Virus record (IMG/VR): IMGVR_UViG_3300049846_000211
Span: 1 to 30,363 of that record
Length of the DNA stretch: 30,363 nt
Source: a virus
Direction: 5' to 3' (one strand)
Shown: positions 12,616 through 25,672 of the stretch, in pieces
Position numbering within the stretch: position 1 is the stretch's first letter
Layout: the number at the start of each line of letters is the position of its first letter
Notes under the pieces: model-generated
Databases searched by the model: none
Told to the model about the DNA's origin: nothing
What the model saw: the letters and a program-made list of their open reading frames with translations, nothing else
Program-made: the position numbers and the translations under genes

Positions 12616-13004
12616 CAGACTGTCAGCTCTCCAACCAGAGTAACCGACACGCTGCTGCGTCCGGTAATGACCGACTCCACTTCAGGGGCCTGCTCGTACT
12701 CCCACTTAATTCCAGTGGGAGACTGAATGTAGGTTTGCAGGCTGGTGCCCATGCCAGCAAATAGGGTGGTCGGCAGCGTGAATCGCACAAAGCCAGCCGC
12801 CGTATCAATGTAGTGCTTGACGATCAGTTGTGCCTGGGCGTCGGTGATGTTCTCGAACTGCAGGCTGAGCGAGTAGCCGGTCGGTTTGTTGCCGAAGCTG
12901 CGCTTTACCGTCGCGCCAGACATCGCCCGATACACCTTGGTCGGATAAGAGCCCATTCTGAATGAACGGGCCGAAGGCTTGATGTCAGGAAATGGCAGAG
13001 ACAT
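12615..13004 (-). CDS. Minor tail protein, lambda gpM position
   Basis: This 129-residue beta-rich protein starts SLPFPDIKPSARSFRMGSYP. It has KRSFGNKPTGYSLSLQFENI and DAQAQLIVKHYIDTAAGFVR, then WEYEQAPEVESVITGRSSVS. The pattern of a paired beta-sheet with a helix that begins 'TDAQAQLI' recurs in phage tip proteins that lie directly after the tape measure gene, as gpM does in lambda. It probably forms part of the distal tail ring. TGATG overlaps link it to both neighbours. Sequence identity with gpM itself is not evident, so the call is positional with supporting fold hints. Confidence 0.68.
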   Translation of the reverse strand: MSLPFPDIKPSARSFRMGSYPTKVYRAMSGATVKRSFGNKPTGYSLSLQFENITDAQAQLIVKHYIDTAAGFVRFTLPTTLFAGMGTSLQTYIQSPTGIKWEYEQAPEVESVITGRSSVSVTLVGELTV

Positions 13005-16000
13005 CAGCGGAGACCCACCTGGCGACGTGTTGTCGGGCTCTGTTGCAGCCTATCAAGAGTCATGCTCATGCCGCGCTTGGCGCCGTCGCGAGACGCTGCT
13101 CGGCGCGTCTCAGCCATGGCTGCCTCGAGCTGATCGCGGCTGACGTACTCAACACCGCCGATGTTGGTGGTCTGGAAGGTCATGTTGAGCGTGGGGGCTT
13201 GCTGCGCCACCGGAGAACGACCCATGATCTCGTTCATCTTGTCCTGACCCTTGAGCGACACAGGGATGCTGCGGCCGTCTGGCAGGGGCACATACGCTTC
13301 GGGCTTGCTGCCCTCGCCGAAGAGGGCCATCTGCGGGCTGTTGGCGATGCCGCCGCTGGCGTAGCGCTTCATTGGGATCGGGCCGCGGGAGGTCATGACG
13401 CCGCCCTTGGCGAAGGAGAAGCCGCCGGTGAATGCAGCCGGATTGAAGCCGGCCTGGCCGCCACCGAAGACGGAAGCACCAGACACTGGACCAGCGCCGC
13501 TGAACCCAAACCCGCCGCCGCCAAAGATCTTCGCAATGCTGTTCAGCGCGATGATCACCAGCTGCTTCGCGATGATGTCGGTGGCCATCTTGATGAATGA
13601 CTGGCCGATATTCGCGAACATGTCCGACAGCGCCTGCTTGATCGAGCCGGAGCCGGTGACGACGGAAGTTACGGCTGACGACATGGCACTGGAGATCTGA
13701 GTCTCGACGGTCTGGCCGATTGTGATGAGGACGTTCTCGACGTTGGTGAGCTGATCTAACTGAAGTTTCAGTTGACCGATGTAATTAGCGAGCGCGACGC
13801 CAGGCGCAATCTGAGCTTGGGCAAGCGCGTTATAAGCCGCGATTTGACGATCTAGCGTAGAATTCACCAGATCAAGTTCTTTTTGATAGCCATCAAGAGC
13901 AACCGTATTATCATCGCCTTCGGCCTCTCTAATAAGTTGCTTGAGCTCTAGTGTGCGCTCAAGTCGCCTCTGCTCAATCTCGGCAATTTTTAGCTGTGCA
14001 TCAAGGAGCTCTGGCCTCATGCCAGACTGCTCAAGCTGCATACGCTTCAACATGAGAGCATTATTATCTTCGAGCGCCTTAGCTTCGTTGCGCAGGCCCT
14101 GAGTCCGATCTTGGGCGTATTTCTGCGCCTCATTGCTTAGCAGGAACTTGGCTTGATCAGCGGTAAGGCTTAGCAGGTTTGCTGCCTGCGTCGCCTCTGC
14201 ACTGGAGGAGCCAGCCTTTCCGGCTGCAGCGACATTTCGACGAGTCTGAGCGGCAACACCAGCGGGGGATGTCTTGATGGCGCTGTTGGCCATTAAGTGA
14301 AGGGCGCGCATCGTCCCCTCTGGTGTCATCACCTCAATGGCGTAGCCGCCAGCGCCGGTGTTGCCAAGGTTCCGTCCGAAAGTGGCTCCGCCCTTAAGCG
14401 TGATGGCAGATCCTGCCGGCGTGCCGAAGTCGATGCCGCCATGGAAGCTGCGGCCGAACAAGCTGCGTGGTCCGTAGGGACTAGTGACGCCAAAGCTGCT
14501 GGGAGCTCTGCCGTTCACCAAGAAGTACTTATCGGCATCCGCCTTGGTAATCGGTCGCCCATCCCCCCACCGAAGATCGAGATGAGCGCCCGTGCTTTGA
14601 CCGGTATTGCCGGTGCGAGCAACGATTCCGGTGCTTGAAAGAGGAACTCCGCCGCCACTCAGTCCTTGCCCAGTGACCGCTTCCATACGAGCGCCAAAGG
14701 CGGCATTTTGCTCGGCAACGACAACACCAAGTGTTGCTTCGCGAACGCTGCGACGAATACTCTCAATTCGAGCGAGGAATTCATTCGCCGCCCGCCTAGT
14801 CTCCGCTCGCTCGCCTTCAAGCGCGCCGGCCTGGAGATCACGCTGCCTCTGCAAGCGCTCCTCTTCGTAGTCCCAGCGCTTTTTAATCAGCTCGATCTGG
14901 TTATTGAAAACTGTTTGAGCTAACTGAATTTCAGCCTTAGCTGCTGCCTCGTTTAGGCGTTGCTGTTCGGCGGCGAGGCGTTCGGCTTCGGCGCGGGCTT
15001 TATCCAGTGCCCGTTTGTCGAGATCGCCCTTGCCTCCACCTGCAAGGCTGAAATCGGTCAAGCCCTGAGCCTTATCGCCCTTTCTCTTCGACAGCTCGTC
15101 GATGCCGGCCTTGTAGCGACTTTCGGCCAGCTTTAGGACGGCCTCTTCAGCGGCAATTTGCTGCCGAAGAAACTCTTGACGCGGCTTGAATGGCGTCGAT
15201 TTGAGTTCAGCGTTGTACGCCTTCAGCTTGTCGGCGGCTAGCTGGTAAGCCTTTCCCGCAGCGGAAACTTGATCCTGAAGACGCTCGGTGTCCAATGCGG
15301 CGCCACCGATACTCTTAACCCAAGCTTCGCCTCTAATGTCGCTCGTGGCGCTTTTGAGGCGGTCTCTTGCTTCTTTGATCTTACTGAGCCAGCCCCAAAC
15401 GATTTCAGCGCCAATAATTCCGACAGTGAGAAGAATTGGAGCAGCTAAAGATCTTGCAAGCGTTCTTACAGTCGTGCCAAATGCTGCGAGCCTGTTTTGC
15501 GCAACAACTGCTTGAGCGGTTGTTTTGCCAAAGGCGATACTAAGCAGGCCGAGACCTGCCTGCACCGGCCCAAGCAATGCTCCAAATGCCTTCATCGCAA
15601 GACCGGCACCAGTAAACGTAAGCGCAAGCTTTGCGATAGACGCAATCACGCCAGCATTTGATGCCACTGCCTCAATTAGGCCGGCAAATCCCTTCGCAAG
15701 TTCAACCAGGGCCGGGGTTGCGCTCTTCAGCGCAGTGACTAGAGAGTTTTGTATCTCCGCCCCGAGCGGTAGCAACGCTTCGCCAATGGCTCGCTTGGTG
15801 TCATTCCAGGTAGCAGTGAGACGAGCGCCCGCCTCCGCCGACGAATCAGAAATGTCCTTCGCTCGCTGCTCAAATTGCCCCAGACCCTGATCCGAGACCA
15901 CGAACTTCATCAAGTCAGCCAAGCCGACCACACCCTGCTCGAGATCCTTCTGCAGCTGGGGCAGGGTGCGACCGGTGGCTTTGGCGAACATCGTCACCGC

Positions 16001-16858
16001 ACCAGGCAGTCGCTCACCTAGCTGGCCCTGCAGCTCCTCTGCGGAGACCTTGCCTTTCGAGAAGATCTGGCCAAGAGCCGTCAGGGAGCCCTGCACGTCC
16101 TCCGATGTACCGCCGCTGGCCTTGATGGCAGCAGTCACATTGCGGAACACCACCTCGGCGTCCGCCACCTTGCCGCCAGCGCCGATCACAGCAGCGCTGA
16201 GCTGCGTCATGCCCTTGGTGGCTTCAAGCTGCGGGACGTTGAAGTCGCGAGTGACCGATGCCGATGCTGCCAGCGCCCGCTGGTACTCCTCTTGGGTCTT
16301 GGTGACGCCCTTCAGGGCAATCTCGAGCTTGCTGATGTCGGCGGCGTAGGTGGTCAGAACGCCAATCTGCTGACGGAACATTCCAACCTGGCCGCCAATC
16401 GCGCCTCCGGCAAGCGCTCCGCCAGGGCCGCCTAAGATGCCGCCAATTCCGGCGCCGATCAGACCTTCAGGCCCACCAAACACCCCAGAGGCCGCAACGG
16501 CGCCTGCGGTCTGCGCAAACCGCGTGCCACGGCCGCCCTGCTGCTGCTGCGCCCCAGTCGCCTTGTCAAGCTGAGCCTGATACTTATTGATCGTGCCGGT
16601 GAGCTTTCGATACTCCCGGTCGGTCAGCGACAGCTGGGCGCGGACGTCCTTCAGCGCATTGATCGACTTGCGGAGGTCGCTCTCGGTGCGGCTGCTGGCG
16701 CCGCCAAGCTGCATCGCCGCATTCTTCAGCTTCTGCAAGTCAGCCGACGCCGGCGCCGCCGTGGTCTGCAGCTGCCGGACCGCGTTCTTGAGGCTGTCGA
16801 CCTGATCGAGACCCTTCAGGAGGACTTCAATCCGGGCCCTGATCGTCTCATTTGCCAT
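13004..16858 (-). CDS. Tape measure protein with embedded M23-like domain
   Basis: This 1284-residue protein sets tail length; at about 0.15 nm per residue it predicts a tail near 190 nm. Residues 1-110 are coiled coil (LKNAVRQLQTT, LRKSINALKDVRAQLSL). About 110-160 is a Gly/Ala hydrophobic region (GGPEGLIGAGIGGILGG). About 170-380 is the conserved tape-measure domain (LSAAVIGAGGKVADAEVVFR, VSAEELQGQLGERLPGAVTM). Hydrophobic segments follow at about 430-500, then coiled coils to 710. Residues of about 745-870 resemble an M23 metallopeptidase, with H806-x3-D810 in HGGIDFGTPAG but with the usual last motif (GNTGQSTGAH759LD761) placed first. The C-terminal part has more coiled coils and a Gly/Phe-rich end. 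ATG at 16858 overlaps the GT stop. Confidence 0.93.
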   Translation of the reverse strand: MANETIRARIEVLLKGLDQVDSLKNAVRQLQTTAAPASADLQKLKNAAMQLGGASSRTESDLRKSINALKDVRAQLSLTDREYRKLTGTINKYQAQLDKATGAQQQQGGRGTRFAQTAGAVAASGVFGGPEGLIGAGIGGILGGPGGALAGGAIGGQVGMFRQQIGVLTTYAADISKLEIALKGVTKTQEEYQRALAASASVTRDFNVPQLEATKGMTQLSAAVIGAGGKVADAEVVFRNVTAAIKASGGTSEDVQGSLTALGQIFSKGKVSAEELQGQLGERLPGAVTMFAKATGRTLPQLQKDLEQGVVGLADLMKFVVSDQGLGQFEQRAKDISDSSAEAGARLTATWNDTKRAIGEALLPLGAEIQNSLVTALKSATPALVELAKGFAGLIEAVASNAGVIASIAKLALTFTGAGLAMKAFGALLGPVQAGLGLLSIAFGKTTAQAVVAQNRLAAFGTTVRTLARSLAAPILLTVGIIGAEIVWGWLSKIKEARDRLKSATSDIRGEAWVKSIGGAALDTERLQDQVSAAGKAYQLAADKLKAYNAELKSTPFKPRQEFLRQQIAAEEAVLKLAESRYKAGIDELSKRKGDKAQGLTDFSLAGGGKGDLDKRALDKARAEAERLAAEQQRLNEAAAKAEIQLAQTVFNNQIELIKKRWDYEEERLQRQRDLQAGALEGERAETRRAANEFLARIESIRRSVREATLGVVVAEQNAAFGARMEAVTGQGLSGGGVPLSSTGIVARTGNTGQSTGAHLDLRWGDGRPITKADADKYFLVNGRAPSSFGVTSPYGPRSLFGRSFHGGIDFGTPAGSAITLKGGATFGRNLGNTGAGGYAIEVMTPEGTMRALHLMANSAIKTSPAGVAAQTRRNVAAAGKAGSSSAEATQAANLLSLTADQAKFLLSNEAQKYAQDRTQGLRNEAKALEDNNALMLKRMQLEQSGMRPELLDAQLKIAEIEQRRLERTLELKQLIREAEGDDNTVALDGYQKELDLVNSTLDRQIAAYNALAQAQIAPGVALANYIGQLKLQLDQLTNVENVLITIGQTVETQISSAMSSAVTSVVTGSGSIKQALSDMFANIGQSFIKMATDIIAKQLVIIALNSIAKIFGGGGFGFSGAGPVSGASVFGGGQAGFNPAAFTGGFSFAKGGVMTSRGPIPMKRYASGGIANSPQMALFGEGSKPEAYVPLPDGRSIPVSLKGQDKMNEIMGRSPVAQQAPTLNMTFQTTNIGGVEYVSRDQLEAAMAETRRAASRDGAKRGMSMTLDRLQQSPTTRRQVGLR

Positions 16859-17500
16859 GGTCGTTCAGCACCTGAAGAGCGGCGGCCTCCATAATCTGGA
16901 TGCCTTCCAGCATGGCCTTGGGATCCTCAACCGAGTATAGGTCGCACAGCCACCGGAGCACCTCGTACTTCAGGCCGGTGAAGCCACCCATCACGACGTT
17001 CCACTGCGTTTGCATGCGGAGGAACATCATCACGGTGTCCCAGTTCTCTTCCCATACTTCAAACTCGTCCGGCTTTTCCTCAGGCGAAGGAAGGACGATG
17101 CCCATCAGACGGGCGTCGTCCTCCGTGTCGTCCTTTTCACCGCCGGCTGCGGCCCAATACCGGGCCGCATCCTTCAGTTTTTTGCCTTCGCCCCCTCCAG
17201 GCTGGCGAGGTATGCCGTGATGACTCCCCTGGTGAAGCAAGGGTCGTCCAGCATGTCCTTCAGCGCAGCAGGAGTGAAGGGGATGTCCTTGTCGGACTCA
17301 TCCTTCACGCCCTCCCAGCCCTCGAGGACGGTCTCGATCAGATCAAGATCGCCCTTGTCGATGAGCTTCTGGAATTCCTTCCGGCCGATGCGCTTGAAGA
17401 TCGCGTCGAATGACTCGCTTTCAAAGCGGCCACCGTCGACGGGAAATTCGACGGTGACCGGCCACTTGAAGGATGAGGACTTCTTTCGGACGAAAGCCAT
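16848..17500 (-). CDS. Tail assembly chaperone, GT-like frameshift product
   Basis: This is the -1 frameshift fusion of the G-like frame with the T-like frame. Ribosomes leave the first frame at A AAA AAC (17183-17177) and resume with CTG at 17177, giving about 217 residues: 108 from G plus 109 from T (LKDAARYWAAAGGEKDD to the end). The T part has an acidic linker, then FEVWEENWDTVMMFLRMQTQ and LKYEVLRWLCDLYSV, which resembles DUF1799-type proteins found in the same place in other phages. The T frame has an ATG at 17240 without any useful ribosome site and inside G, so independent initiation is unlikely. Its end overlaps the tape measure start by 11 bases. Confidence 0.88.
17148..17198 (-). 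promoter_or_regulatory. Programmed -1 ribosomal frameshift cassette
   Basis: Reading on the minus strand, GGAGG (17198-17194) lies 10 bases before the slippery heptamer A AAA AAC (17183-17177), which is in register with zero-frame codons GCA AAA AAC. A TGA follows at once. After a seven-base spacer (17176-17170) comes a perfect 8-bp stem, TGCGGCCC (17169-17162) with GGGCCGCA (17155-17148), and a six-base loop. Internal Shine-Dalgarno, slippery site, spacer and hairpin are the same elements as in the E. coli dnaX frameshift signal. Confidence 0.93.
17174..17500 (-). CDS. Tail assembly chaperone, G-like zero-frame product
   Basis: The product is 108 residues, starting MAFVRKKSSSFKWPVTVEFP. The in-frame upstream extension into the tube gene is rejected because the ATG at 17500 has a better context and the extension is not protein-like. 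The sequence shows a short strand region, then helices (FDAIFKRIGRKEFQKLID, ETVLEGWEGV, FTPAALKDMLDDPCFTRGVI). It ends in AKAKN directly at the TGA. Tail chaperones of this kind coat the tape measure and recruit tube subunits, and are absent from the virion. The last sense codons form a slippery A AAA AAC, which allows a -1 shift into the next frame. Confidence 0.9.
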   Translation of the reverse strand: MAFVRKKSSSFKWPVTVEFPVDGGRFESESFDAIFKRIGRKEFQKLIDKGDLDLIETVLEGWEGVKDESDKDIPFTPAALKDMLDDPCFTRGVITAYLASLEGAKAKN

Positions 17501-17516: not shown

Positions 17517-18449
17517 TCAGGTGAAGGCGAGTGAAAGCTCGTCGTTACCTGCACTGGTGGGGATGGCCACGTAGGGCAGGCTCAGCATCTGGATGCCGTC
17601 GCTGTCACTATACGTGGGGTTGCCGATGTCGACCTTCTGGGCAGTGAAGGTGACGCGGTTGCCTGCAGTGGTGCCGTGCAGGAAGGTCAGGCTGCCGGTG
17701 GTGTTGTCGTTGGCAATGGTGAAGAAGTCCTTCGCCGCGATGGTCGGAGCCTCAAGCATCACCTCACCAGCTGGCGCACGGTTGGTGATCAGCACCTGCT
17801 TGGTACAGCCGATCAGCTCGCGATACACCACCTCGTTGGCGATGTCGAAGCTGCAGGACATCAGGCAGCCGCTGTAGCCGAGCATGCTGAAGGCGCTGGT
17901 GTTGCCTTCCTTGAAGATCAGCGGAGTGGCCTGGGCGCTGTAGGTCACTGCCGGAGCGGCGGTGTCGGTCGGGGCGTTGTAGATGCCGGTCATCGTGAAG
18001 TCGATGGTCGGGATCTGGCCCAGCTCACAGTTCATCGTGAAGGTGCCGCGGCAGCCAGTGGCCTTGTGCAGCACGCCATCATTGTTGAAGTAGATGGTGG
18101 CCGAGCTGAAGGCCGAGCTCACTGGGGCATAGGTGACGCTGGTTGAAGCGACGACGGTCTCGGAGAGACCGCAGGCCTTGAGCAGGGAGCTGTATTTCGG
18201 CGCGGTGCCAGCGGTGCCAGAGCCGGCAAGTTCGACCTGGAAGGTGATACCCACCCGGGTGTTGCCGAGCAGCTGCTCGGAGTTGCCCAGATAGGGACGG
18301 ATCAGATCACGAGAAACCTGATCGGCTTCGATCGGGGTGATCTCCAAGTTGCGCACCAAGATCGCGTCAGTGCCGGCTGGCGTCGAATCGGTCGCGTAGG
18401 TGCTTTCAGTCTTCGCCAGAATCAGGCGCTTGCGAGTCAGGAGCGGCAT
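17517..18449 (-). CDS. Major tail tube protein
   Basis: This 310-residue protein forms the stacked rings of the tail tube. The N-terminus (LILAKTESTYATDSTPAGTD, ILVRNLEITPIEADQVSRDL) and the segment with RVGITFQVELAGSG are typical of long siphovirus tube proteins that carry a second beta domain. Later strands include RGTFTMNCELGQIPTIDFTM and SCSFDIANEVVYRELIG. The position between the terminator and the chaperones is that of lambda V. ATG start at 18449 lies within the preceding small gene. Codon use is high-GC and even, as expected for a highly expressed structural gene. Confidence 0.9.
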   Translation of the reverse strand: MPLLTRKRLILAKTESTYATDSTPAGTDAILVRNLEITPIEADQVSRDLIRPYLGNSEQLLGNTRVGITFQVELAGSGTAGTAPKYSSLLKACGLSETVVASTSVTYAPVSSAFSSATIYFNNDGVLHKATGCRGTFTMNCELGQIPTIDFTMTGIYNAPTDTAAPAVTYSAQATPLIFKEGNTSAFSMLGYSGCLMSCSFDIANEVVYRELIGCTKQVLITNRAPAGEVMLEAPTIAAKDFFTIANDNTTGSLTFLHGTTAGNRVTFTAQKVDIGNPTYSDSDGIQMLSLPYVAIPTSAGNDELSLAFT

Positions 18450-19076: not shown

Positions 19077-19397
19077 TCAGGCTGCAGATGCCCAGGGAAC
19101 ACCGCCAGCAACGCTGGGAGAAATCTGCTCCTGAATCTGAGCGAGCAGATTTGCCTCGATGGCTTGAACCTCAGCAGCTCCAAGCGCATCCTGCACCCAT
19201 CCCAGGCAAATGGCCTCGGTCAGATCTGGGTAGGGGATGAAAGAGGCAGGTGGGGCCGGCGGTACGACAGTCTCGCCACCTCTGCGGGCCGCAATGTCGC
19301 CGTCGACGGCTTCGGCAAGCCACCACACGATTTCGACCATGCCGTCGCTTGTGCGGCGGGTCATGTCGACGACTTTCCAGGTGACCACGGCGGGCAT
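19077..19397 (-). CDS. Fibre-associated small protein, copy 1 (GVPW family)
   Basis: This 106-residue protein opens with a WKVVDMTRRTSDGMVEIVWW strand pattern. It has a variable acidic middle, then a helical region beginning YPDLTEAICLGWVQDALG, and ends GVPWASAA. The product of 1221-1541 shares the plan (TITW start, PYAEITKEQVIGWLHAKLG, AAGVPWQ end). Both copies directly follow a fibre gene. I recall this family from marine cyanophages, where its function is unassigned. A fibre assembly factor, fibre-tip protein or chaperone is a reasonable inference from position. The start is coupled to the fibre stop in TAATG. Confidence 0.8.
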   Translation of the reverse strand: MPAVVTWKVVDMTRRTSDGMVEIVWWLAEAVDGDIAARRGGETVVPPAPPASFIPYPDLTEAICLGWVQDALGAAEVQAIEANLLAQIQEQISPSVAGGVPWASAA

Positions 19398-20695
19398 TAC
19401 GCGAAGGATCCTGTGGTGCCAGCGATCTGCCGGACGGTGTAGAAGCTGCCGGCTTGTGGGGTCACGGTGCCTGCGCTGTTGGTTACCTGCAGCTTGAAAG
19501 TGGTGGCAAGGTTGGTGATGATTTTTACGTTGAACTCATACGCCATGTAAGCACCCGCGGTGATTGAAGCAGTAGCAGCAAATGCGGCTGTGGTAGCGTT
19601 TCGGTAGCCGGTATAAGTCGTAATTGTTGCGGCAGATGAGTTAAGGCCCGTAACAGCACCCGAACGAAACACGCCCATCATCAGAGTTGGGGCACTGGAA
19701 GCGGCCAATGTCCAAGTCAGTGTGCCAGCACTGTTTTTGAGTAGAAACGCCAATATCTCAATATCGTAGACGCTGTTAGCTGCCAAGTTGATCGCGCTAG
19801 TAGCACCAAAGTAATCACCGATTGTCGGGCCAACATTGGCGCCGTTGGCCGCAAGGCGAAACGTCTGCCGCGAAGAAATTTGCCCTCGTCCGCTGGTTGT
19901 CGTTGGCGTGCTGTAAAAGTGTGTGCCGTCGTACTCGACCACGCCAGCCACTGCTGTCGTCAGGTTGGTGCCAGCGGTAAACGCCAGCGGAGCTGTGTTG
20001 GCAGTGGCCGTGCCGGCTCGCGGCTTGATGGTTTTGCCGAAGGTTGCGTCGTTGGCGCCGAGCGTTAGCGAGTCAGTTGCCTCTGAGTTCCGTGAGAAGC
20101 GGATGTCGTGATCTGTTGTTGTGCCAAGGCCAAGCGGAGCGCTTGTCGATGTCAGATAGACCGCCCCAGGCTGGTTGAAGATGCCCGTGCCTGAATACGT
20201 CGAACTGTTGATGCCAAAGTTGCCATAGTTGGCACTATCGGTAGACGCGTCGTTGCAAACAACAAAGTCGCACGAGGCGTTTGTGTTGTTGCTTGTGTTC
20301 TGCAGCAGAACCTGGAAATACTGCGTCTCGGTTGACTCAAAGACGGCGCCAATGCGGGCGCCGGTGAAGCTCAGTGCTCCGACGCTGATGACGCCTTTGT
20401 TACTGGCGCCCGCGGCGACTGCATTGATCGCATCAACAGCACCGGTCGTCAGAACATCGGTCGTGCTGTTGAAGCTGAGGTTGACGTCAGCACCGAACGC
20501 GCCGCTGTTGTTGAACTGGACCTGACCGTTGCTGCCGGCCGGTGTTCCGCCGCTGCCGCCGATCTGCACCATCGTGCCGGCGGCGTTCTTGATGTAGAGG
20601 TTGCCGTTCGTGCTGTCCCACGCAGGCTCACCCTCGACGAAAGAGCCTGCCGTGGGAACACCGCTGCCGCGACGCAGACGAATCGTATTAGGCAT
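19397..20695 (-). CDS. Fibre protein with unique C-terminal domain
   Basis: The 432-residue product starts PNTIRLRRGSGVPTAGSF, followed by EGEPAWDSTNGNLYIKN, an attachment domain related to those of the 103- and 484-residue neighbours. The central part has the repeating beta pattern of fibre shafts. Around residues 240-265 is the sequence TTAVAGVVEYDGTHFYSTPT, frequent in cyanobacterial phage fibres. The C-terminal about 150 residues (LAANSVYDIEILAFLLKNSA ... AYMAYEFNVKIITNLATTFK) form a beta-sandwich-like tip, probably receptor-binding or trimerising. Its start overlaps the stop of the upstream fibre (TGATG) and its stop overlaps the following small gene (TAATG). Confidence 0.85.
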   Translation of the reverse strand: MPNTIRLRRGSGVPTAGSFVEGEPAWDSTNGNLYIKNAAGTMVQIGGSGGTPAGSNGQVQFNNSGAFGADVNLSFNSTTDVLTTGAVDAINAVAAGASNKGVISVGALSFTGARIGAVFESTETQYFQVLLQNTSNNTNASCDFVVCNDASTDSANYGNFGINSSTYSGTGIFNQPGAVYLTSTSAPLGLGTTTDHDIRFSRNSEATDSLTLGANDATFGKTIKPRAGTATANTAPLAFTAGTNLTTAVAGVVEYDGTHFYSTPTTTSGRGQISSRQTFRLAANGANVGPTIGDYFGATSAINLAANSVYDIEILAFLLKNSAGTLTWTLAASSAPTLMMGVFRSGAVTGLNSSAATITTYTGYRNATTAAFAATASITAGAYMAYEFNVKIITNLATTFKLQVTNSAGTVTPQAGSFYTVRQIAGTTGSFA

Positions 20696-22149
20696 CAGAA
20701 CGTACCGCCATCAACGGTGGAACCGTCAGATAGCAGCGTACCGCTGGTCGGCAGAGTGACGCTAGTGGCCGCCGTCACTGTCAGCGTGGTGGCAAATGCC
20801 CCGCTCAGTGTCAGTGCACCGGCCGTCAAGATGTTGCCGCCGAGCGTGATGGTGCTGCTGTTGCTGACGCCGGTTCCACCGTTAGCCGCAGCCAGCGTGC
20901 CGGCCAGCGTGATCGCGCCACCGGTGGGCGTGTTTGGCGTCAGGCCAGTAGTGCCAGCCGAGAAGCTGGTGACGCCACCACCTGCGCTGCTGAACTGGTT
21001 GAACGTCAGCGCAGTGCCGCTCGCGCCGCCGATCGTGATCGGGTTGTTTGTCGCCAGTACCCAGCCACTGTCCTGATTGACGGTTCCTTCCTCGACGAAC
21101 ATGAACGCGCCGGCGGCCACCTCGGCGTCAGTGTCGAAGTCAGTAGCCCGGTCCCAGACACCATTCGCGCCCGTGCCGAGGGTGCTGATTACCCAGATGC
21201 CGTTCTGCGCACCGGTGGTCTGGTTCTTGAGCAGGATGCGGTCGTTCGCAGCAAGTGTCACGCCATCGAGCGTGTTGGGTGCTGCAGTGATCTGGCCGCG
21301 GGTGCTGGTGCCGCCAGTCGCGCTATAGGTGACGGTGACGTTGGCCGTGCTCGCTGCACGCACCGACTGCTTCACATCGAGGCCACTGCGGGCCGCATCG
21401 ACGTACCCCTTGTTGGCTGCGTCGGTGTCCAGCGTCGGGGTCGCCAGGTTCGTGATCTTGAAGTTGCCCAGCGAGACGTCCGCCGTAGCGGTGCCCACTG
21501 AGGACAGCGTCGGGTTGGCGTGGACGTGATCAGCTCGGGCGTAACGGGTGGAAGTGCCAACAGCGGCGCTGCCTAGTGCCGCTGGAGTCGCGGACGCCGC
21601 TTGACCCAGCACAAACGCTGTGGTGGCAATCTGCGTTGTGTTGGTGTCTACGGCTGCCGTTGGTGCAGCCGGAGTGCCGGTGAACGTCGGCGACGCCAAG
21701 GCAGCGCGGCTGGTGTCGCTTGGGTGGACGTGATCGGCGCGGGCATAGAGGTTGCTGGTGCCAGCAGCCTGCGTGCCGTTCATCGCAATGGTGCCGGCCG
21801 TGCTGTTGCCCTGGCCGAGCACAAACGCCGTGGTGGCGAGGCGGGTGCTGTTGTCGTTGACGGTCTGGGTGACACCGACAGCGCTGCTGGCGCCAGTGCC
21901 GCTCAGGGTGACGACGCCACTCAGGGTCTTGTCGCCCGTGATCGTCTGCGTGGTGCCGAGCGTCGCAAACGCGCCAGGGCCGCCGATCGACAGAATCGAG
22001 CTCGCTGAACCACCAGCGCCGCCGGTGCCAACGCCGTAGTAGAGGACAGAGTCCTGCTCGTTGAACGCAAGCTCGGCGTTCTGAAGACTGGAGGGGGCGC
22101 CAGCGGCACCACCGGCAAGGCGGCGCTTGATCCTGATGGTGTTCGGCAT
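20695..22149 (-). CDS. Tail or head fibre protein
   Basis: This 484-residue protein starts with an attachment-type N-terminus (PNTIRIKRRLAGGAAGAPSS, then ELAFNEQDSVLYYGVG). It continues as low-complexity Thr/Ala/Gly/Ser beta-rich sequence. Two copies of a roughly 70-residue module (TTAFVLGQ ... ARADHVH) occur at about 21505-21840. The RADHVH motif is known from tail-fibre and collar proteins. A central domain (QSVRAASTANVTVTYSATGG, RILLKNQTTGAQNGIWVI, NQDSGWVLATNNPITIGG) is a recurring phage-fibre domain. It ends in SDGSTVDGGTF. It lies between connector genes and the tail terminator, an unusual place for fibres. Confidence 0.85.
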   Translation of the reverse strand: MPNTIRIKRRLAGGAAGAPSSLQNAELAFNEQDSVLYYGVGTGGAGGSASSILSIGGPGAFATLGTTQTITGDKTLSGVVTLSGTGASSAVGVTQTVNDNSTRLATTAFVLGQGNSTAGTIAMNGTQAAGTSNLYARADHVHPSDTSRAALASPTFTGTPAAPTAAVDTNTTQIATTAFVLGQAASATPAALGSAAVGTSTRYARADHVHANPTLSSVGTATADVSLGNFKITNLATPTLDTDAANKGYVDAARSGLDVKQSVRAASTANVTVTYSATGGTSTRGQITAAPNTLDGVTLAANDRILLKNQTTGAQNGIWVISTLGTGANGVWDRATDFDTDAEVAAGAFMFVEEGTVNQDSGWVLATNNPITIGGASGTALTFNQFSSAGGGVTSFSAGTTGLTPNTPTGGAITLAGTLAAANGGTGVSNSSTITLGGNILTAGALTLSGAFATTLTVTAATSVTLPTSGTLLSDGSTVDGGTF

Positions 22150-22152
22150 GGC

Positions 22153-22464
22153 TTAGAAATTGCCCCCGTCTGTCAGTGTGATTTTAGTGGTTACGTTGTC
22201 GGCCAAGAACTTTGACGAGGTGGCGTCGTAGTAGACAACGCTGCCGTCGACTTTTGCCGATGTATCGACATCAGTGAGACCGCCCAGCGGCACGCCTCCG
22301 CTGGCGTTGACGTACAGCAGGGTGTTCCACGCCGTAGTGCCATCGCCAATCTTCAAGCGGCGCGTGTCACTCTCAAATCCAGCCTCACCAGGCTTCAGGA
22401 TTGGATTGGCAGCCGTCCAAGCTGCCGCCGTTGCGCGTCTCAGCTGGATGTACTGCCGCGTCAT
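22153..22464 (-). CDS. Short fibre protein with Mtd-N-like domain
   Basis: This 103-residue protein begins with the pattern QLRRATAAAWTAANPILKPG, then GFESDTRRLKIGDGTTAWN, typical of the Mtd N-terminal/phage-fibre attachment domain. A second segment (LGGLTDVDTSAKVDGSVVYY) repeats the DGxxxYDxxxxxF module seen at the end of the preceding gpFII-like protein. It ends in LTDGGNF, similar to the DGGTF end of the next gene. It is too short to be a full fibre on its own and more likely acts as an adaptor or collar piece between the connector region and longer fibres. Confidence 0.7.
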   Translation of the reverse strand: MTRQYIQLRRATAAAWTAANPILKPGEAGFESDTRRLKIGDGTTAWNTLLYVNASGGVPLGGLTDVDTSAKVDGSVVYYDATSSKFLADNVTTKITLTDGGNF

Positions 22465-23560: not shown

Positions 23561-25672
23561 TCAGGTGCCGAAGCAGAAGGCACCAGGCTGCTTGACGGCA
23601 AAGTCGACGTCCTGCAGGGCGATGATCCGCACGGTGCCAGCGGTGGAGCCGGCGTAGGGATCCACGGTCAGGTCGAGACCAGACCACATGCCAACCACGA
23701 ACTGGCTGAAGTCACCGAACAGGCAGTCGTTGGTGCCCAGCTGGTTCGACACGATCACCGGGTAGCCGTTGATCTGGTCGTTGTCGTACACGAACTGAGC
23801 GGTCGAGGTGGCCGACTTCTCGGTGCTCTTCAGAGCGCCGCGGGCTGCAGCGTTGATGATGTACCGCAGGGCGCCGGCATCAGCGTTGGCGGTTGCCACA
23901 TCGGTTTCCATGCCGATGTACTCGGCGAAGGTGCCGTAGGTGGTGATGGCCTGGCTACCGATGCCCGTGGTGTTGGTCAGGCCCAGGGGCTGGTTGGAGC
24001 TGCCGGTGCCGTAGATGGCAGCGCGATCAAGCTCGAGAGCGATCACACGAGCCAGATCACTGCGGATCATGCCCTCGACATCGATCGAGGACTGAAGCAG
24101 CAGGCGGCGGCTGTAGTCAACGAATGCACCCACAGTCTTGGGGGTCATGTTGACCTGATCGATTGCCTGCTGGCTCTCGGTGGGGCTGCCGCCCTCGCCG
24201 ACCCAGTAAGCAGTCGCGGCCGAGCTCTGGCGGGGGATGCTGATGTTGCCCTGCAGGCCAGACAGCATGGTCACGCCGGCCTGCATCATCGCCATGCGAT
24301 TGCGCAGGAGGTCGATGAAGCTGCCGCTCAGCAGTTCAGCGGAGACCAGGTTGCCGCCGGCAGTGGAGGTGCCCACCACCAGGTCACGACGCAGCACCTC
24401 GTTGGGGATCACGATCCCGTTGGAGGAGCGCTCGTACTTCTTCGCAGCAGCTTCGCCGACTTCGATCTCGAAGCCAGCCTGCTCGCGAGCCTTGCGGTCG
24501 CCAGGGTTAGCCAGATAGTTCAGAGCACGGATGAAGGAGAACTCACGAGTTTCCTTCTCGGTGAGACCAAGATCGTTGGCCTTCTCATCGGCGATGCGGT
24601 GTTCCACTTTGGAGCTGCGGGTGTCGAGTTTGTCGAGGACAGCGGCGCGAGCCTCGTCCACGGAACGGCCGCCGTCGATCAGCTCACGAGCCAGATCTTG
24701 GAGACCATGCTTTTCGCCAAGGGCGTTGATGGTGGCGATACGGCTGCGCTCGGCCTCAGCGGCCTTGGACCGGATCACCTCCACGTCAGGGGTGGTGTTT
24801 TCCATTTGGAGAACCTTCGGTTCTGGGGTTGGTGATGCGGCGGGGGCCGCGGAGTCAGTCGCAAGCGACCGGCCTACACCCACAGTGGGGTCTGCCGGGA
24901 TGCTAACAACCGAAACTTCGTAGGGACTCCACTCAGTGGCTACGAAGTTTTCGCCACGCTCCTCCATCTTGTTGATCGCGTAGCCGAAGCTGACACCCCG
25001 AAGGACGCCATCCTTGACATCAGCCATCACCTCTTTGGCGAAGCTATTGCGAGAGAAGCGGACCTTCACATAGCCGCGCTTCTTTTTGCCGTCGATCCAT
25101 GCCCGCTCAACTACACCCACAACCTTGTCAGGGTTGTGGTTGAAGAGCAGCGGAGCGCCGTCATTAAGACGTGCCAGATCAGCGGACTGCCCCTCATGGC
25201 TCAGCACCTCGTTGCCGAAGTACCGCGCCACAGGGTACTCAGAGCTGAAGGGGAACTCAAAGCTCCGATCCTCCAGCTCCGAGAACGTGGTGACCTCAGT
25301 TCTGGTGTAGTTGCCTTCCAGCTTGCGCTCCTCAACGATTTCCTCGGGCTGGTTGCGATCGGCCGGTGCATCCTCGACGGGCGGAGTCGGATCAGAGACC
25401 AGCGCCTCTGGCACGATCCAGAACTTGCAAGCGCCCTCAGGAGCAATGTCGCCCTCAACGATCTCGCAGCCCCTCGGACCAGCGAAGAAGTTGCAGTTTG
25501 CGCAAGCGATGCCCTCACTGGCGAACGGGCTCACTTCCATGTAATGAGCTCCAGCGGCGCCAATGCCCTTATCGAACGAGCCGATCTCGTCCGCGATCTC
25601 CTCAAGACTCTCGTAAAGCGCAATCTGATGCGCCTTCAAGTCGGGAGTGATCTCGCGCTCCTGTGTGTCCAT
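23561..25672 (-). CDS. Prohead protease-scaffold-major capsid fusion with N-terminal four-Cys domain
   Basis: The single 703-residue frame carries four regions. Residues 57-82 form a four-cysteine motif (C57-x2-C60-x8-C69-x12-C82), resembling the cluster-binding pattern of high-potential iron-sulfur proteins. Residues of about 120-275 are an HK97-type (S78) prohead protease, with H179 in LLFNHNPDKVVG and S228 in GVSFGY as the likely catalytic pair. About 290-400 is a helical, charged delta/scaffold-like segment. From about 418 (SSNGIVIPNEVLRRDLVVG) to the end is an HK97-fold capsid protein, with the typical GSFIDLLRNR, WVGEGGSPTESQQ and YGTGSSNQPLGL segments. Fusions of protease and capsid are known, in which the protease releases the mature capsid by self-cleavage. 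No separate capsid gene exists in the window. The iron-sulfur assignment is inferred from cysteine spacing only. Confidence 0.93.
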   Translation of the reverse strand: MDTQEREITPDLKAHQIALYESLEEIADEIGSFDKGIGAAGAHYMEVSPFASEGIACANCNFFAGPRGCEIVEGDIAPEGACKFWIVPEALVSDPTPPVEDAPADRNQPEEIVEERKLEGNYTRTEVTTFSELEDRSFEFPFSSEYPVARYFGNEVLSHEGQSADLARLNDGAPLLFNHNPDKVVGVVERAWIDGKKKRGYVKVRFSRNSFAKEVMADVKDGVLRGVSFGYAINKMEERGENFVATEWSPYEVSVVSIPADPTVGVGRSLATDSAAPAASPTPEPKVLQMENTTPDVEVIRSKAAEAERSRIATINALGEKHGLQDLARELIDGGRSVDEARAAVLDKLDTRSSKVEHRIADEKANDLGLTEKETREFSFIRALNYLANPGDRKAREQAGFEIEVGEAAAKKYERSSNGIVIPNEVLRRDLVVGTSTAGGNLVSAELLSGSFIDLLRNRMAMMQAGVTMLSGLQGNISIPRQSSAATAYWVGEGGSPTESQQAIDQVNMTPKTVGAFVDYSRRLLLQSSIDVEGMIRSDLARVIALELDRAAIYGTGSSNQPLGLTNTTGIGSQAITTYGTFAEYIGMETDVATANADAGALRYIINAAARGALKSTEKSATSTAQFVYDNDQINGYPVIVSNQLGTNDCLFGDFSQFVVGMWSGLDLTVDPYAGSTAGTVRIIALQDVDFAVKQPGAFCFGT

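Follow-up and report, generated by a model that had tools for sequence, protein, structure and literature searches.

The -1 frameshift cassette of Escherichia coli dnaX is built from a Shine-Dalgarno (SD) sequence about 10 nt upstream, a slippery heptamer and a downstream hairpin. Frameshifting in the G/GT tail-chaperone genes of phages is textbook knowledge. Such low-level frameshifting is conserved in a wide range of long-tailed phages, and the dnaX heptamer is A_AAA_AAG (PMC5009743). In reporters, phage tail-chaperone sites shifted at 6-7% (PMC3711429). Heptamers ending in AAC have been described as well, i.e. AAAAAAC adjoining a stop in Acinetobacter phage Loki (PMC5313236) and AAAAAAC and GGGAAAC in phiCbK-like phages (PMC3556154), and a -1 frameshift is already annotated for the DUF1799 relatives in RcapMu and Smarc2. 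A_AAA_AAC is inefficient in E. coli reporters, yet it is probably used by insertion sequences (PMC4066793).

We analysed a 30,363-nt stretch of viral DNA (IMG/VR record IMGVR_UViG_3300049846_000211), here called the window. On its minus strand the G/T tail-chaperone genes of a tailed phage contain what, judged from sequence, is almost certainly a site of programmed -1 ribosomal frameshifting, an ordinary example of the known mechanism. The minus-strand gene order is gpA-type terminase, lambda-type portal, fused protease-capsid, tail-terminator-like protein, tail tube, G, T and tape measure. As is typical of G/GT loci, an overlapping gene pair with the second member in the -1 frame lies between the genes for the tail tube protein (17517..18449, minus strand; Phage_tube_2, 7.6e-25) and the tape measure protein (13004..16858, minus strand; TMP_3, 6.7e-21), the latter overlapping the end of T.

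The initial annotation had proposed a three-part cassette, and every element of it was found at 17198-17148 on the minus strand. An SD-like GGAGG (17198-17194) is located 10 nt 5' of the heptamer A AAA AAC (17183-17177), a spacing like that of dnaX. The heptamer has the 0-frame register X_XXY_YYZ of a -1 signal (GCA AAA AAC TGA) and is touched by the 0-frame stop TGA (17176-17174). A stem of 8 bp is formed by a 5' arm TGCGGCCC (17169-17162), which starts 7 nt past the heptamer, and a 3' arm GGGCCGCA (17155-17148), which enclose the 6-nt loop GGTATT (17161-17156). The minus strand thus reads GGAGG, GGGCGAAGGC, AAAAAAC, TGA, AGGA, TGCGGCCC, GGTATT, GGGCCGCA. The seven bases said to precede the stem are correct when counted from the end of the heptamer with the TGA included, but not after the TGA, where just AGGA intervenes. 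The heptamer is A AAA AAC and not of the highly shifty bacterial AAG type seen in dnaX. AAAAAAC occurred four times in the window with 1.8 expected, AAAAAACTRA once with 0.02 expected, and GGAGG-N10-AAAAAACTGA once, with no occurrence in 100 shuffles. Anti-SD pairing at the GGAGG amounted to -11.2 kcal/mol, and the first 44 nt 3' of the heptamer had a folding energy of -21.8 kcal/mol (z -2.9). An Rfam search yielded no match.

G, a G-type tail assembly chaperone of 108 aa in the 0 frame (17174..17500, minus strand; ATG at 17500, stop TGA at 17176-17174), matched phrog_569 (1.5e-19) and phrog_313, 'Tail assembly chaperone' (1.3e-6); the match to Phage_TAC_4 (0.0025) was below the cut-off of that family. 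The -1 frame had been described as open for 109 residues and as resembling a T-type chaperone. Both points were confirmed, as the frame runs from CTG at 17177 to TGA at 16850-16848 (16848..17177, minus strand) and its product matched DUF1799 (PF08809, 2.5e-14) and phrog_680 (9.4e-27). The G-T fusion would comprise about 217 aa. In a comparison of predicted folds the AlphaFold model of G (pLDDT 83.5) matched 'Tape measure chaperone' models in BFVD, so that homology to known tail chaperones is given by fold as well as by phrog_313, phrog_680 and DUF1799. The BFVD matches include two products of Serratia phage Scapp, of 129 and 236 aa, and this modelled pair is consistent with a G form and a G-T form. 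Searches of solved structures in the PDB by sequence and by fold gave no credible match for G and T; matches to ribosomal L20 with E of 0.009-0.4 were judged to be due to chance. An NCBIfam search gave no match. Invariant residues of T were Leu1, Phe52, Thr57, Trp59 and Glu97 (68-70 relatives), while Asn108 was the sole invariant residue of G (64-65 relatives). In S-LBS1 the G chaperone (L302:7024-7404) has been given the annotation of an ABC-type cobalamin transporter ATPase, and PHROGs 569 and 680, i.e. those of G and T, carry the label 'tape measure protein'; these labels look like annotation errors.

For a survey of relatives IMG/VR and GTDB contigs were scanned with T queries and four phage records were added, which yielded 288 places including the window and 207 distinct junctions. 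A AAA AAC or G GGA AAC was present in 202 of the 207 junctions and the stop touched the heptamer in 189, 135 with AAAAAAC and 54 with GGGAAAC. The slippery sequence is thus kept as in a G/GT family, a point on which the initial annotation had made its reading depend. The same annotation had called the AAC ending with a touching stop unusual. On the contrary, those 189 junctions make it the family rule, and it is published for Loki (PMC5313236). Thirteen junctions had AAAAAAC with a stop 1-3 codons later, four had AAAAAAG with a stop 5-6 codons later, and one (L197) had just a chance heptamer. The AAAAAAG relatives (L184, L188, L201 and L203) are Halomonas-type, while in sites of the AAC type the stop touches the heptamer or lies at most three codons away. 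At five places no site was found within the distance limit; AAAAAAC was slightly beyond it at three, one was truncated, and L209 was without any. AAC together with a touching stop was seen in the named isolates S-CBS1, S-CBS3, S-LBS1, phiES15, RC1, RcapMu, eiAU, CS01, PS-1, YMC11/02/R656, Smarc2, IME18, Ec_L1, Loki and CRP-406; in ZDD2 the stop follows the AAC site three codons later. Scans with other types of T gave one locus for RC1 and two for Loki, of which one is apparently the genome of Loki. The lambda-type scan gave 80 near-identical loci, which are of no use for a cross-family comparison of AAC and AAG. Near the end of HK97 gp13 no X_XXY_YYZ heptamer was found; the HK97 site is apparently G GAA AAG, followed by a stop several codons on, and therefore does not test the AAC rule.

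Selection on RNA structure was assessed in 40-nt segments against synonymous codon shuffles. Mean z was -1.36 ± 0.12 for segments starting 0 nt downstream and -1.41 ± 0.14 at 6 nt; it fell to -0.26 at 12 nt and was close to zero further downstream, with a weaker dip of -0.3 to -0.6 around 54-78 nt. For segments starting 0-6 nt past the last heptamer base, 37-44% were individually significant at p<0.05. The extra folding is restricted to the first ~45 nt downstream of the heptamer, and structure is under selection at 5-9 nt as in a dnaX-like signal. The initial annotation had suggested comparing the stem among relatives for compensatory changes. Across 30 relatives 91.7% of the pairs of the window's own stem were formed, and the third codon positions of Ala4 and Ala9, where changes are synonymous, covaried, pairing as GC in 13, GU in 10 and CG in 5; none of 500 shuffles and none of the slid registers reached this covariation score. 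More distant relatives mostly retain a hairpin 5-8 nt downstream with other sequence; little hairpin is predicted in some, e.g. L085 (-5.2 kcal/mol) and Ec_L1 (-3.5 kcal/mol). Anti-SD pairing had a family mean of -5.2 kcal/mol at 6-18 nt upstream, compared with about -1 to -2.8 kcal/mol at most positions further upstream. At 6-18 nt it exceeded synonymous shuffles by 0.7 ± 0.2 kcal/mol, an excess which is modest and partly due to the encoded Glu-Gly.

The touching stop was analysed with 95 AAC-type representatives, kept below about 80% identity to remove redundancy. T begins with Leu in 95/95. Because Leu1 is universal, the 0-frame triplet past AAC is set by the choice of the Leu codon, and the expected number of touching stops was computed from the base that follows and from how often these T genes use each CTN codon. 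We observed 89 touching stops versus 46.5 expected; the corresponding P of 3e-26 holds for independent rows, and the representatives are related. Ahead of a G base Leu was CTA in 14/17, giving TAG, and CTG in 0/17, with CTG being the commonest Leu codon and 12.5% of CTN codons being CTA. In the T tree, the stop changed its identity at least 28 times, remaining a stop, the heptamer at least nine times and adjacency five times. The stop switches among TAA, TAG and TGA across the family. We concluded that the stop is maintained, not merely inherited. The anatomy of the site, its conservation and the selection on each element are legible in the sequences compared here.

This conservation lends strong support to the core reading of the initial annotation, in which a three-part -1 signal links G- and T-type chaperones. 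Most ribosomes would read GCA AAA AAC TGA and terminate, giving G. A minority would be held by the downstream hairpin and by pairing of GGAGG with the 16S rRNA, would slip back by one base on A AAA AAC, the two tRNAs re-pairing with AAA AAA, and would continue with CTG AAG GAT into the G-T fusion. By analogy with lambda, G and G-T would form a coat on the tape measure protein and bring in the tail tube protein. Slippage in the host of this phage and the role of G and G-T in assembly are inferred. The slip rate is probably a few per cent; it could be very low, A_AAA_AAC being weak in E. coli reporters (PMC4066793). The junction peptide given initially, AKAK/LKDAAR, has the right flanks, but the residue from the second slippery codon was omitted; the correct form is ...GAKAK-(N or K)-LKDAAR. 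The predicted Glu-C peptide of the G-T junction is GAKAK[N/K]LKDAARYWAAAGGE, while trypsin would reduce the junction to NLK. Slip after decoding of AAC would give GAKAKNLKDAARYWAAAGGE, slip before it GAKAKKLKDAARYWAAAGGE.

Could T be made by other means than ribosomal slippage? Deposited T annotations often begin at an internal codon (S-CBS1, S-CBS3, phiES15), and the window taken by itself has a TTG some 21 codons before the slip site, which makes initiation in the T frame formally possible. T might then be a separate product, translated from an internal start codon through re-initiation or translational coupling. However, 75 of 93 representatives have no ATG, GTG or TTG from the upstream T-frame stop to T residue 8 (88 of 93 if ATG alone is considered), and T residues 1-8 are conserved (Leu1, Ala4, Trp8) though mostly without a start codon able to include them. 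Therefore T is almost certainly made as a fusion, and because separate initiation would also give the heptamer and its touching stop no reason for conservation, we consider it most improbable. A fused product could also arise from transcriptional slippage on the run of six consecutive A, which is short for polymerase slippage. G GGA AAC, which is without a long homopolymer, freely replaces A AAA AAC in the family, with the heptamer changes on the tree mentioned above, and the conserved feature is an in-register X XXY YYZ together with SD and hairpin. Thus transcriptional slippage is hardly to be expected at this site, and we favor the programmed -1 ribosomal frameshift.

Within this frameshift reading the stop itself may be part of the mechanism, a refinement which we regard as possible but rather unlikely. 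AAC would be decoded and translocated, the stop would enter the A site, and during slow termination tRNA-Lys and tRNA-Asn in the E and P sites would slip back in competition with release factor. The excess of touching stops over the expectation from codon usage fits such a late slip. So does the stop 5-6 codons off in the four AAG-type relatives and in lambda, as if weak AAC sites alone needed it, but the four AAG cases are one Halomonas-type group. AAC with a stop is also present in phages with a T that is not of the DUF1799 type (Loki, CRP-406). In HIV-1, substitution of a stop for the following codon showed that this codon was decoded before the shift, whereas in Rous sarcoma virus, with its natural stop intercodon, changing the stop left frameshifting unaltered (PMC4373837); the former result is compatible with a late slip, the latter argues against it. 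Furthermore, six of the 95 AAC representatives have the stop 1-3 codons later, and adjacency may merely spare G extra residues. On a plainer reading the stop may simply fix the C-terminus of G. The broader proposal that AAC-ending phage sites form a distinct class, in which the touching stop is a fourth functional element setting late slip against release factor, in contrast to AAG-type sites, where the stop is distant, is more doubtful still. AAC sites, weak in E. coli, are retained against a stop codon across the family, which recasts as a simple reporter test the old question whether bacterial -1 slippage can occur with the next codon in the A site.

A cyanobacterial host, as assumed initially, is a guess. 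Among named relatives, Synechococcus siphophages are closest by G and T, with S-CBS1 (34%) and S-LBS1 (28%) nearest for G, but the terminase is tied between S-LBS1 and Roseobacter phages at 46-47%, and the cellular (GTDB) contigs with relatives are almost all Proteobacteria and none cyanobacterial.

Some further genes of the window, all on the minus strand, were noted. Peptidase_S78 prohead protease and Phage_capsid domains share one open frame of 703 aa (23561-25672), which is a natural protease-capsid fusion. At 19397-22464 adjoining ORFs have similar N-termini (MPNTIRLRRG, MPNTIRIKRR, MTRQYIQLRR); with head-completion genes on one side and tail-terminator genes on the other, they resemble inserted paralogues of fibre or decoration type. 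Two far-apart 106-aa ORFs (1221-1541 and 19077-19397) are paralogue-like by eye. Residues ~743-889 of the tape measure protein match metallo-endopeptidase and endolysin profiles, which suggests a peptidase-like domain within it.

The single site is one clean example of a known mechanism and shows that T is split or truncated by genome callers. Of slightly greater weight is the family survey, with AAC and an immediate stop kept across very diverse phages. Compared with known systems, lambda G/GT (G GGA AAG) shares with the window the gene order, a short G and a -1 extended GT with the tape measure next (PMC5009743), and the shift close to the end of G. On the other hand, its heptamer ends in AAG with the stop 5 codons further on, its T has no sequence match to DUF1799, and SD and stem are clear in the window. 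RcapMu, Smarc2, S-CBS1, S-CBS3, S-LBS1 and T1-like Drexlerviridae have a homologous T and A AAA AAC or G GGA AAC touching a stop, but differ in sequence (T roughly 30-52% identity) and in hairpin details. Loki gp12/gp13 and CRP-406 share AAC and the touching stop, with a T that is not DUF1799-like. E. coli dnaX shares the arrangement of SD, heptamer and hairpin, but has AAG in place of AAC, and its shift shortens the product while that of the window lengthens it. Thus the window is dnaX-like in layout, not in heptamer.
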